64,000 nucleotides of DNA from assembly GCF_021049265.1 (NCBI RefSeq), contig NZ_CP088018.1:558001-622000 (forward strand), written 5' to 3'. Of this stretch, positions 38,923-43,531 are shown piece by piece (positions within the stretch are counted from its first letter, which is position 1; every line of letters starts with the position of its first letter). The notes under the pieces were generated by a model that had not been told where the DNA came from, ran no database searches, and saw only the letters and a list, made by a program, of their open reading frames with translations. The DNA comes from Ruania suaedae (GTDB lineage Bacteria; Actinomycetota; Actinomycetes; Actinomycetales; Beutenbergiaceae). Both the position numbers and the translations under genes were made by a program.

Positions 38923-38952
38923 GTGACGGCGATGCTTGAACGTCCGTAGAGT
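38923..38952 (+). promoter_or_regulatory. Candidate promoter of the Rib-repeat surface protein
   Basis: GTGACG (38923-38928), 18-bp spacer, TAGAGT (38947-38952). It would give a leader of about 90 nt to GTG 39050, or a short one to ATG 38972. Confidence 0.4.
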
Positions 38953-39049
38953 CTCGTTGCAGTCGTCTGTGATGGACGTCATGGAATCGAACACGCCACG
39001 GACCCGACCGGGTCACGGGCACCACGCACCCAAGGCTCGGGGGAGTTAC

Positions 39050-42000
39050 GTGCAGAAAAACAGGAATGTCGCGCGCAGACGAGCGCGCTCCGCATGGCAG
39101 CGGCCGTTGGCGGGCGCAACCGCCATGGTCACCGCCATCGCGCTGGGGGCCGTTGGTCTCTCCGGCACGCTGACGCCGGCCAACGCCATCCCGTCGGACG
39201 ACAGTGAGGCACTCGCCGAGCTGATCAACCTCGACGCACTCGGTCTCGACGCGGTCGACGCGATCACCACCGAGTCCGGCAACCCGAGCGACCCCGGGCC
39301 GAACAGCGCCGACATCGACGCCTCGGTGCTCGAAGGGATCGTGGGTATCAACGTCGGCGGCGTCACGCTGCCGCTCATCGGTAACGGCACCGCCGGTAGC
39401 GGGCTGCTCGACCTCGGTGACAACGCCGCGGCCGGCCTGCTCAACGGTTATGCCTCCTCCCCGGACTTCCAGTCCTCCGTCGCCGCATCCGGTGCGATCA
39501 CGGGTGAAGGTTCGATCAACCCGGACGCCATTGATGGCGGACCGGTTGCCACAGTCGACCTGACCGCGCCGCTGGAACAGCTTGGCCTCGACGGCGTCAC
39601 TGACGAGGTCGTGGATCAGCTCGGGATCCAGCTCGGCGCCATCGCTTCACGCGCCGAGGTCACCGACGGCACGGCGGTCGACAGCGAGTACCTGATCGCC
39701 GACGCCCAGCTCGCGGTCTCCAGCCCTCTGGTTGACGACCTGTCCACGGACCTCGACGACACGCTCATCGGTGTCGGCGGCACGGTCGATGCAGCACTCG
39801 GTTCCGAGGGCACGGTCGGCAGTCTGCTGGGTGACCTGGACATCGACCTGAGTGTTCTCGGTATCGGTGTGGACGTCAGCTCCGGGACGATCGGTGTCGA
39901 CGGTCTCGACGCCGCGCTCAGCGAGCTCAGCAACACGCTGATCAACGAGCCGCTGGTCGACCCGAACGGCATCGTCTCCATCGACCTGAACAGCGGGCTG
40001 ATTTCGGTCGACCTCGCCCAGCTCGGTGGTCCGGAGGGGCTGAACGGCCTCGACGCCAACACCCCGCTTCTCGACGACGAGCAGATCGGTCTCGTCACGA
40101 CGGCGGTCTCGGAGGCGCTCGGCAGCCTGACTTCCAAGGTCACCGAGGGCGTGACCGAGGTCCTCAACGAGACCTCCGTGACGCTCGACCTGTCGGCTCA
40201 ACTGTCGTACCTGGTCAACAGCACCTCCGCCGAGATCTTGGTTGACACCACGCTCGGCCAGCTCGCAGGCACCGACGACACGACCGAGCCTGCCGTGGAG
40301 ATCAACACAGACGGTGGCGTCCTCGACACCATCCTTGGGCTTCTTGGCTTGAGCCTCGAGGACCTCACCGACGGACTCGTCACACCGCTGGTTGACGAAT
40401 TGCTCGATGTCGTCGGCGGCACCGTCGGCACGCTCATCGACACCATCGGTGACGACCTCGACACCACGCTCACCGGCCTGATCGACCCGATCCTGGCCTC
40501 GCTTTCGCCGCTGTTCAGTGGGCTCAACGACCTGGTCAGCATCACGATCAACGAGCAGCCCACCGCGGAGCCGATCAACGGCGAGGGCGACCTGGGCGAC
40601 GAATCCTTCACGGTCCGCCCGATGGCGATCGACGTGCTGCCTGGCCTCGCCAGCGGCGTGGCGCTCGACCTGGCCTCCTCCACGGTTCGCGCCAGCGATG
40701 AGCCCTCCAACGCCACCTCCTTCGAGCCGGCGTACGCGCCGACGGATGCGGTGCCGGGTGAGTCGGTCGACTCCGAGGAGCCGACCTTCACCGATGCCGA
40801 GGGTGACCCCGCCACCGCGCCTACCGGCACGGAGTACGCCCTGGGCGACGACGCGCCGGACAGCGCGTCGATCGATGAGACGACCGGCGTGGTCACCTTC
40901 ACGCCGGCCCTGGACGACGCCAACACCACGGTGAACGTGCCGGTGGTGGTGACCTACCCGGACGGTTCGACCGACACGACCGACGCGCCGTTCGAGGTGG
41001 GCGACACCAACGCCGGGCTGTTCGAGCCGGCCTACACCGACACCGACGCGTTCGTGGGTGTCGAGGTGACGTCCGAGGCGCCGACCTTCTCCGACGCTGA
41101 TGGCCCGGTGGACGAAGCGCCGGAGGGCGTGGAGTACGCGCTGGGCGATGACGCGCCCGACGGCGCCACGATCGATGGCGCCACTGGCGCGGTCACCTAC
41201 ACCCCGACCGTGGACGACGCCGACACTACGGTGGACATCCCGGTCGTGGTGACCTACGACGACGGCTCGACCGATGAGGTCGACGCCCCGTTCGTAGTGG
41301 CCACGCTGGCCGACTCCTTCGATCCCTTCTACACCGACACCGACGCTGAGATCGGTGAGGAGGCGACGTCCGAGGACCCGACCTTCACCGACAGTGAGGG
41401 CACGGAGGGTCTGGACGCTCCCGAGGGCACGACCTTCGCCTTGACCGATGAGGCGCCGGACGGCGGCAGCATTGACGAGACCACGGGTGCGATCACGTAC
41501 ACCCCGACGCTCGACGACGCGAACGACACCGTCACCTTCCCGGTCGAGGTCACCTACGACGACGGCTCGACCGATCTGGTCGGGGCCAACTTCCAGGTGG
41601 GCGACACCGTTGCCTCCGAGTTCGACCCGGAGTACGCGCCGACCCAGGCGAGCCCGGGCGTGGCCGCTGTCTCGGATTCGCCGGACTTCGGCGAGGACGT
41701 CACGGCACCTGAGGTCAGCTACGCGACCGGATTCGACGCACCTGACAGCGCCGAGGTCGACTCCGAGACCGGCGAGGTCACCTTCACGCCGGCCCTGGAG
41801 GACGCCAACACCACGGTGAACATCCCGGTCGTGGTGACCTACTCGGACGGCTCGGGCGACCTGATCTACGCGCCGTTCGTGGTGGGCGACACCTCCGCGA
41901 ACCTGCTGGACCCGGCGTACGCCGTGACCCCGGCGGAGCTCGGACAGGAAGCACTGTCGGACGAGCCGACGTTCACTGACGCCGACGGCGCGGCCGAGGC

Positions 42001-43504
42001 CCCTGAGGGGACCTCGTACGAGCTGGCTGAGGGCGCGCCGGAGAACTCCGCGGTCGACGAGGCGACCGGTGTCGTCTCCTTCACGCCGTTCGGGGAGGAC
42101 GCCGGACAGCTCGTGAACATCCCCGTGGTGGTCACCTACCCGGACGGATCGACCGACGAGGTCGACGCCCCCTTCCAGGTGGAAACCATCGCCGAGGCGA
42201 TCGATGTCGACTACACCGAGACCGAGGCGAACGTGGGCGTGGAAGCCACGTCTGCGCCGCCGACGTTCAGTGTGGACGGCGAGCCGGGCGACGGCTTCCC
42301 GCCGGGGACGAGCTTCGCCCTCGCGGACGACGCTCCGGAGGGTGCGACGGTCGACGCCGAGACCGGTGAGGTCACGTGGACACCTGGCATCGAGGATGCC
42401 GACAGCACCGTCAACATCCCGGTGCTGGTGACCTACGCGGACGAGTCGGTCGACGAGGTCGATGCCCCGTTCGTGGTCGGCGTCTACAACGACAATGCGT
42501 CGGCCTCGGCCGCCGCGTCTGCCGACGCCGATGACAACTCGAACGCGTCGGCTGAAGCGGCAGCGGAAGCTGCGGCGAGTGCGGACAACGAGACGGATGC
42601 CTCGGCTGCTGCCGATGCGACCGCGGCTGCGGCAGCTGAGGCCGCTGCAGACGAGGACGCCTCTCAGGACGCCTCGGCGGATGCGACCACGGACCCGGAT
42701 GCGTCGGCTGCTGCGGCAGCTGAGGCGGCGGCGAACGCGGACAACTCCTCGAACACCGCTGCGGACGCTTCGTCGGCCGCGTCGGCGAACGCCGATTCCG
42801 ACGCCACCTCCGAGGCCGCTGCTGCGGCCGACGCGGCGGCGACGGCGGACTCCTCCACCGATGCCTCGGCTGAGGCTTCGGCGGACTCCGATGCCAACAC
42901 CAACGCCTCGGCGTCGGCGTCGGCCTCGGCGGATGCGGACGATGACTCCAACGCCTCGGCTGAGGCTGCTGCTGAGGCGGCGGCTGACGAGGACAACGAG
43001 TCGGACGCTTCGGCTGCTGCCGATGTGACCGCGGCTGCGGCGGCTGAGGCCGCTGCGGACGAGGACGCCTCGAGCGATGCGTCGGCGGATGCGACCACGG
43101 ACCCGGATGCGTCGGCTGCTGCGGCAGCTGAGGCGGCGGCGAACGCGGACAACTCCTCCGACACCGCTGCGGACGCCTCGGCGGCCGTGACCGCGGATGC
43201 CGACTCCGACGCCACCGCTGAGGCCGCTGCTGCGGCCGACGCGGCAGCGACGGCGGACTCCTCCACCGACGCCTCGGCTGAGGCTTCGGCCGACGCCGAT
43301 GCGGCTGCGGACGACACGGCTGACGACACCGCTGACGCGACGAGCGCCAGCGATGCGGATGCCGACGCGGACGGCGACGATGGCGGGAGCCTTCCCGACA
43401 CCGGCGCCGGCCTCGACACTCTGTTCGTCGTGATCGCCCTGGCACTCATGTGCCTCGGTCTCGGCCTCCTGCTGACCGGCAACCGGCGGTCGCACGTGGC
43501 CTGA
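39050..43504 (+). CDS. LPxTG-anchored surface protein: choice-of-anchor-G-like N-terminus, six Rib-like repeats, acidic Ala-rich stalk
   Basis: A 1,484-residue cell-wall protein. The signal peptide (basic RNVARRRARS, hydrophobic core) likely ends after PANA (Ala46). Residues about 47-550 resemble the choice-of-anchor-G region (AELINLDALGLDAVDA, NPSDPGPNSADIDASVLEGI, GTAGSGLLDLGDNAA). Six Rib-like repeats of 95-101 residues follow (558-1147), each with an LxDxAPxx...FTP...VxxPVxVTYxDGS pattern. The stalk (1149-1420) is almost only Ala, Asp, Ser, Glu, Thr and Asn. The sortase signal LPDTG is at 1448, then a hydrophobic helix and RRSHVA. GTG 39050 has GGGGGAG 4 nt upstream; ATG 38972 is the alternative. 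No sortase is in the window. It presumably mediates adhesion or interbacterial contact. Confidence 0.88.
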   Translation: MQKNRNVARRRARSAWQRPLAGATAMVTAIALGAVGLSGTLTPANAIPSDDSEALAELINLDALGLDAVDAITTESGNPSDPGPNSADIDASVLEGIVGINVGGVTLPLIGNGTAGSGLLDLGDNAAAGLLNGYASSPDFQSSVAASGAITGEGSINPDAIDGGPVATVDLTAPLEQLGLDGVTDEVVDQLGIQLGAIASRAEVTDGTAVDSEYLIADAQLAVSSPLVDDLSTDLDDTLIGVGGTVDAALGSEGTVGSLLGDLDIDLSVLGIGVDVSSGTIGVDGLDAALSELSNTLINEPLVDPNGIVSIDLNSGLISVDLAQLGGPEGLNGLDANTPLLDDEQIGLVTTAVSEALGSLTSKVTEGVTEVLNETSVTLDLSAQLSYLVNSTSAEILVDTTLGQLAGTDDTTEPAVEINTDGGVLDTILGLLGLSLEDLTDGLVTPLVDELLDVVGGTVGTLIDTIGDDLDTTLTGLIDPILASLSPLFSGLNDLVSITINEQPTAEPINGEGDLGDESFTVRPMAIDVLPGLASGVALDLASSTVRASDEPSNATSFEPAYAPTDAVPGESVDSEEPTFTDAEGDPATAPTGTEYALGDDAPDSASIDETTGVVTFTPALDDANTTVNVPVVVTYPDGSTDTTDAPFEVGDTNAGLFEPAYTDTDAFVGVEVTSEAPTFSDADGPVDEAPEGVEYALGDDAPDGATIDGATGAVTYTPTVDDADTTVDIPVVVTYDDGSTDEVDAPFVVATLADSFDPFYTDTDAEIGEEATSEDPTFTDSEGTEGLDAPEGTTFALTDEAPDGGSIDETTGAITYTPTLDDANDTVTFPVEVTYDDGSTDLVGANFQVGDTVASEFDPEYAPTQASPGVAAVSDSPDFGEDVTAPEVSYATGFDAPDSAEVDSETGEVTFTPALEDANTTVNIPVVVTYSDGSGDLIYAPFVVGDTSANLLDPAYAVTPAELGQEALSDEPTFTDADGAAEAPEGTSYELAEGAPENSAVDEATGVVSFTPFGEDAGQLVNIPVVVTYPDGSTDEVDAPFQVETIAEAIDVDYTETEANVGVEATSAPPTFSVDGEPGDGFPPGTSFALADDAPEGATVDAETGEVTWTPGIEDADSTVNIPVLVTYADESVDEVDAPFVVGVYNDNASASAAASADADDNSNASAEAAAEAAASADNETDASAAADATAAAAAEAAADEDASQDASADATTDPDASAAAAAEAAANADNSSNTAADASSAASANADSDATSEAAAAADAAATADSSTDASAEASADSDANTNASASASASADADDDSNASAEAAAEAAADEDNESDASAAADVTAAAAAEAAADEDASSDASADATTDPDASAAAAAEAAANADNSSDTAADASAAVTADADSDATAEAAAAADAAATADSSTDASAEASADADAAADDTADDTADATSASDADADADGDDGGSLPDTGAGLDTLFVVIALALMCLGLGLLLTGNRRSHVA
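40721..42489 (+). repeat. Six tandem Rib-like repeats (285-303 bp each)
   Basis: Repeat starts at 40721, 41021, 41318, 41621, 41906 and 42200, each beginning F/L/I-D/E-x-x-Y. The spacing is in frame. DNA identity between units is moderate, so the array is old compared with the stalk duplication. Confidence 0.8.
42494..43309 (+). repeat. Tandem duplication of a 408-bp (136-codon) stalk unit
   Basis: Unit 1 is 42494-42901 and unit 2 is 42902-43309. Long stretches are identical at DNA level, for example the segment from 42674 repeats at 43082, exactly 408 bp later. The encoded residues are Ala, Asp, Ser, Glu, Thr and Asn with almost no others. Confidence 0.85.
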
Positions 43505-43531
43505 TCCGCATCGCGGATGAGCACGGATCAA

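Follow-up and report, generated by a model that had tools for sequence, protein, structure and literature searches.

The surface-protein gene analysed here raises the question of what occupies the segment between its stalk repeats and its wall anchor, a stretch written almost entirely in six kinds of amino-acid residue. It is routine to mask such segments, or to set them aside as disordered, low-complexity spacers, and the initial annotation of the window (the whole 64,000-nucleotide stretch of Ruania suaedae DNA under study) described this one as the product of a recent tandem duplication that yields an acidic, helical or disordered spacer. Our analysis points to another assignment: the segment is most likely a wall-proximal stalk module that is held by purifying selection and changes its copy number by recombination.

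From N- to C-terminus, the protein comprises a choice-of-anchor-G domain, six RibLong repeats, the stalk and an LPDTG signal (Table 1), and the placement of the stalk between the RibLong repeats and the anchor agrees with the initial annotation. The choice-of-anchor-G domain scores well over the curated cut-off of NF033766, which places the protein in that family. The C-terminus (LPDTG...TGNRRSHVA) is that of an LPXTG sortase substrate, and the window genome, a single contig of 3.56 Mb, carries two sortase genes, both located elsewhere than at the surface-protein locus. The NCBIfam anchor model did not come up to E 0.001 against the surface protein. On the minus strand, a 1294-codon open frame (window positions 39647-43531) runs antisense to the gene, and is probably a by-product of high G+C content and repetitive codons.

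Table 1 Features of the surface-protein gene, in window positions
Feature	Positions	Strand	Remark
Surface protein ORF	38936-43504	+	1522 aa from mechanical TTG start; true start possibly further in
Choice-of-anchor G domain (NF033766)	39197-40069	+	Residues 88-378; 208.8 bits vs cut-off 45
Six RibLong / YPDG repeats (Ig-like stalk domains)	40721-42487	+	Domain matches
Alternating-alanine stalk module, unit 1, 136 aa	42494-42901	+	
Alternating-alanine stalk module, unit 2, 136 aa	42902-43309	+	
77-bp run identical to 43082-43158 (unit 2)	42674-42750	+	Core of the less diverged part; from alignment and run lengths
Short Asp/Ala-rich tail, last unit to anchor	43310-43390	+	Sequence
LPDTG sorting signal, hydrophobic segment and basic tail	43391-43501	+	Sequence

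The stalk (42494-43309) consists of exactly two in-frame 408-bp units that align with zero indels, with 85.0% nucleotide identity and 120 of 136 residues identical. Codon-shuffled versions of the stretch reach at most 56% identity (mean 49%, 2000 shuffles), and in a self-comparison of the stalk region every other lag stays at or below 58%; since both remain far below 85.0%, the tandem duplication is real, and the two tandem units stand as first described. So does the nearly six-letter alphabet: 267 of the 272 residues are Ala (131), Asp (46), Ser (42), Glu (17), Thr (17) or Asn (14), the others being two Pro, two Val and one Gln, and Lys, Arg and aromatic residues are absent. The claim of long identical DNA stretches was overstated, in that there is one run of 77 bp and the next longest measure only 26 and 23 bp. 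A TRF run did not report the 408-bp array, and the unit is absent from the rest of the window's own genome. The share of the alanine codon GCT is 28% in the stalk versus 7% in the remaining protein and in a groEL-like gene, which may reflect codon diversification in repetitive DNA.

The window units lack the low silent divergence that marks a recent tandem duplication. Overall, dS between unit 1 and unit 2 is 0.53 and dN is 0.069, and by quarters of the unit dS is saturated in codons 1-34 and then amounts to 0.33, 0.20 and 0.30. The first 40 codons with identical amino acids carry 22 silent differences, where 21.5 are expected for independent codon choice, and the other 80 carry only 12 (Fisher P about 1e-5 versus the first 40). 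Per amino-acid-identical codon, the silent divergence between the units is 0.28, which lies inside the range of 0.25-0.52 among the six Rib repeats of the same protein, the neighbours with which the initial annotation had suggested comparing it, and just below the 0.31-0.38 separating the stalk from that of the nearest species. Silent-site divergence thus rules out the recent duplication that had been assigned to the window gene.

Saturation of codons 1-34 beside a moderately diverged remainder implies an old duplication with partial later homogenisation, and the simplest reading is that the right-hand three quarters of the unit were exchanged between the copies at a later time. We infer gene conversion behind this silent-site mosaic, which could instead have arisen through unequal crossing-over. 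Recombination does occur in the module family, as follows from two module copies that are 100% identical over 384 bp in one relative (G182) and copies that are 99.5% identical in another (G009); of the earlier picture, the tandem duplication holds and array length does vary between species, but recency is not supported for the window gene. A tree of the family's units has little resolution. Overall, units from a single gene group together more than expected by chance, but support for a pair is limited to the copies in G001 (and to the identical ones in G009), and the window copies do not pair.

Nearly indel-free versions of the module are present in six further species of the window genus and in two other genera of its family, and in 13 units from two genera the unit length is fixed and 46 of the 136 columns are invariant. 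The HMM used for searches was built from 13 units, and it locates the module in 31 of 396 genomes from the order (seven genera, four families); in samples of 394 genomes across the class and 396 across the phylum, no genome outside the order has it. Shuffled sequences served as the test of homology, given the very small alphabet. With the first-family HMM, units from the other families score 49.6-87.4 bits, compared with at most 18.5 bits for parity-preserving and at most 33.7 bits for tetrapeptide shuffles, and between-family unit identity is 0.58-0.64 versus 0.34-0.39 for shuffles. Chance similarity through composition is ruled out by these two kinds of control. Searches of the stalk against Pfam and NCBIfam models were empty up to E 10, and a PDB search gave nothing convincing (best E 0.11, ribosomal protein L29). 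Literature searches on "choice-of-anchor G" and on alanine-rich low-complexity LPXTG stalks in Actinobacteria found nothing. Judged from its sequences, the module is an unannotated domain family present in four bacterial families.

Proteins of the order carry between one and eight copies of the module, and array length differs between species, the comparison being one of species with one genome each. Complete arrays mostly end in LPxTG. Nine proteins were typed, and in seven of them a choice-of-anchor-G domain lies N-terminal to the array; of the remaining two, one is truncated at the end of its contig. Module and domain need not occur together, since in one genome (G236) the module is attached to a different N-terminus without this domain. 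The choice-of-anchor-G domain itself occurs in 73 of the 396 genomes, and the alanine module is therefore one of several partner stalks.

What the homologous units share is a register of alanines. Across 78 units, alanine fills 69% of the even but only 23% of the odd positions. The period-2 power of the alanine pattern is 45, against a 95% limit of 9 for the maximum in shuffles. Individually, each of the 78 full-length units exceeds the 99th percentile of its own shuffles. All alignment gap runs are of even length, as are 52 of the 57 unit-to-unit spacings, one or two of which are uncertain by a residue owing to the profile boundaries. A weaker four-residue register is superimposed, such that all ten odd positions with at least 85% Ala are 3 mod 4. 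A period of 3.5-3.67 residues is absent from the alanine pattern (P above 0.7); in conservation, a 3.5-residue component is present but weak (P about 0.01). Asp/Ser-rich breaks recur, for example A-D-S-S-x-[DE]-A-S, and the register breaks coincide with D-x-S-x-D-A-S motifs at a spacing of about 17 residues that is below significance. Serines are conserved at unit positions 5, 9, 57, 121 and 125. A coiled coil is ruled out, in that the alanine pattern has neither a heptad nor a hendecad period. Charge is likewise ruled out as the conserved property: the acid content of homologous units ranges from 4 to 25% while the alanine register persists, and the acidity stressed in the initial annotation is not what the units conserve.

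The module appears to be held by purifying selection on its alanine register of every second, and partly every fourth, residue, and not on its charge. When the window species is compared with its two closest relatives, dN/dS, a rough measure on a six-letter sequence, is 0.10-0.19 in the stalk and rises to 0.40-0.46 in the N-terminal region of these proteins, so that in these comparisons the supposedly low-complexity part is the better conserved one. In the comparison of these two relatives with each other (the G003-G006 pair), the two regions are about equally constrained (0.08-0.09 for the stalk, 0.11 for the N-terminal region), and the contrast hence rests on the window-species comparisons.

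These data bear directly on the reading from which we started, a recently duplicated and hypervariable acidic spacer, disordered or helical, whose exact sequence is irrelevant. The composition, the uniformly negative charge and the helices modelled by AlphaFold2 agree with it, and hypervariable (DPDSST)n spacers do adjoin the module in G003, G004 and G006; however, a fixed unit length with invariant columns across two genera, homology between four families beyond composition, dN/dS of about 0.1-0.2, silent saturation of codons 1-34 and acidity that is not conserved all speak against it, and we regard it as very improbable.

A different account would make the register the fossil of a 6- or 12-bp minisatellite expansion without structural meaning, and the array a glycosylated extended rod like the SD-repeat and serine-rich stalks. 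The strict mod-2 and mod-4 phase would fit such an origin, as would the conserved serines, and known dipeptide stalks are glycosylated (PMC3794999). The alanine positions, however, persist despite heavy divergence at silent sites, which argues that selection, and not recent expansion, keeps the register. We therefore consider this account unlikely.

The two-residue register suggests a chain that is extended or beta-like, with alanines on one face. In one form of this proposal, the module forms extended beta structure, stacked narrowly in the manner of silk or a solenoid, in which the polar Asp, Ser, Asn, Thr and Glu residues occupy the face opposite the alanines and the conserved Asp/Ser-rich breaks act as turns. 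The dominance of period 2, the lack of a helical period in the alanine pattern, the even gaps and mostly even unit spacings, and the position of the register breaks at the D-x-S-x-D-A-S motifs are in line with this proposal. Against it, alanine is a poor strand former, a simple strand leaves the four-residue register unexplained, and AlphaFold2 favours a helix whether given two sequences or one. With window sequences as the only input, AlphaFold2 returned long helices both for the two units as two rows (mean pLDDT 71, pTM 0.38) and for the stalk alone as one row (mean pLDDT 58, pTM 0.22). Given the few sequences and the abundance of alanine, these low-confidence models are weak evidence for a helix; nevertheless, together with the weak 3.5-residue component of conservation they mean that the register does not prove an extended fold. 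We hold the beta arrangement as a tentative proposal with the balance tilted against it.

The same tentative standing is given to a single alanine-rich helix interrupted at Asp/Pro/Ser-rich caps, which the four-residue component and the weak 3.5-residue conservation signal keep in play. The AlphaFold2 models and EAAAEAAA-like segments favour it, but the alanine pattern itself lacks the corresponding period, it is not obvious what registers of period 2 and period 4 would do in a single helix, and a high content of Asp, Asn, Ser and Thr disfavours helix. The compound proposal of an undescribed domain family with a strict alanine-every-second register that folds as a narrow alanine-faced beta rod and forms the stalk of surface proteins is rather doubtful; if true, such a rod would be a folded domain made from almost only six residue kinds. 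The module allows a clean test of the folds open to a sequence of about six residue types.

Several known systems resemble the stalk in part. The SD repeats of staphylococcal ClfA/Sdr proteins likewise use a small alphabet with a two-residue register and lie between N-terminal domains and an LPxTG anchor (PMC3794999). In the module, however, alanine holds the register, and a position-specific unit of 128-136 residues is conserved between families; with its Ala-x register the protein scores only 19.2 bits with the ClfA model, against a cut-off of 1150, and does not belong to the SD-repeat MSCRAMMs. Serine-rich repeat glycoproteins of the GspB and Fap1 type share dipeptide-type repeats in an adhesin stalk but differ in composition, the 78 module units having 15% serine and 46% alanine. 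Periscope proteins (SasG, Rib, Sgo_0707) are wall-anchored with tandem stalk modules varying in number, and are defined by length variation at strain level (PMC8201768). Tandem wall-anchored modules of variable number, with identical copies in relatives, are found here too; in contrast, the DNA identity of the array units is 85% in the window (99.5-100% in G009 and G182), the variation is between species, and the module is no known globular family. The RibLong / YPDG repeats of the same protein are tandem stalk domains of comparable silent divergence, yet they are a known stalk family of normal composition, which the alanine module does not match. The spacer described here, with its clear register and its conservation above that of the N-terminal region between the window species and its nearest relatives, would give research on surface proteins of variable length a stalk module of a new kind.

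The module lies with Rib repeats on one side and the sorting signal on the other, is arranged in tandem and differs in copy number between species, all of which is consistent with a stalk that determines how far the N-terminal region extends, as in periscope proteins; in position and two-residue register it also resembles the SD repeats of ClfA. In the explanation that we favour, the two copies in the stretch belong to a conserved module, about 128-136 residues long, that would act as the spacer nearest the wall in choice-of-anchor-G surface proteins of a single bacterial order. Once the protein is exported and, presumably, attached by sortase at LPDTG, the tandem modules would hold the RibLong repeats and the choice-of-anchor-G region at the N-terminus away from the wall. 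Arrays would grow and shrink by unequal recombination, through which stalk length might be regulated, and gene conversion would homogenise them in part. For the window gene, the duplication itself is old, with the first quarter of the unit fully diverged at silent sites and the remainder presumably exchanged later. Taken as a whole, that is, a conserved wall-proximal module in a recombining array, an old duplication and a register under purifying selection, we consider this explanation probable.

Individual architectures within the order add further variants. The longest array found comprises eight module copies in a protein of 1917 residues (L074, G182). In the G236 protein (L094), the module is nearly free of acidic residues and is combined with an unrelated N-terminal region (ORF residues 1-410) and an LPNTG motif, an architecture that indicates domain shuffling. 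Three proteins (L024, L025 and L027, from G003, G006 and G004, respectively) have near-perfect (DPDSST)n hexapeptide arrays of very different lengths before or between their modules; these are a truly hypervariable spacer, of another kind than the conserved module. In two choice-of-anchor-G relatives of genus g8 (L031 and L032, from G018 and G014), long repeats of the DPTGT/DPEGT type replace the alanine module and are followed by another domain and then LPSTG.
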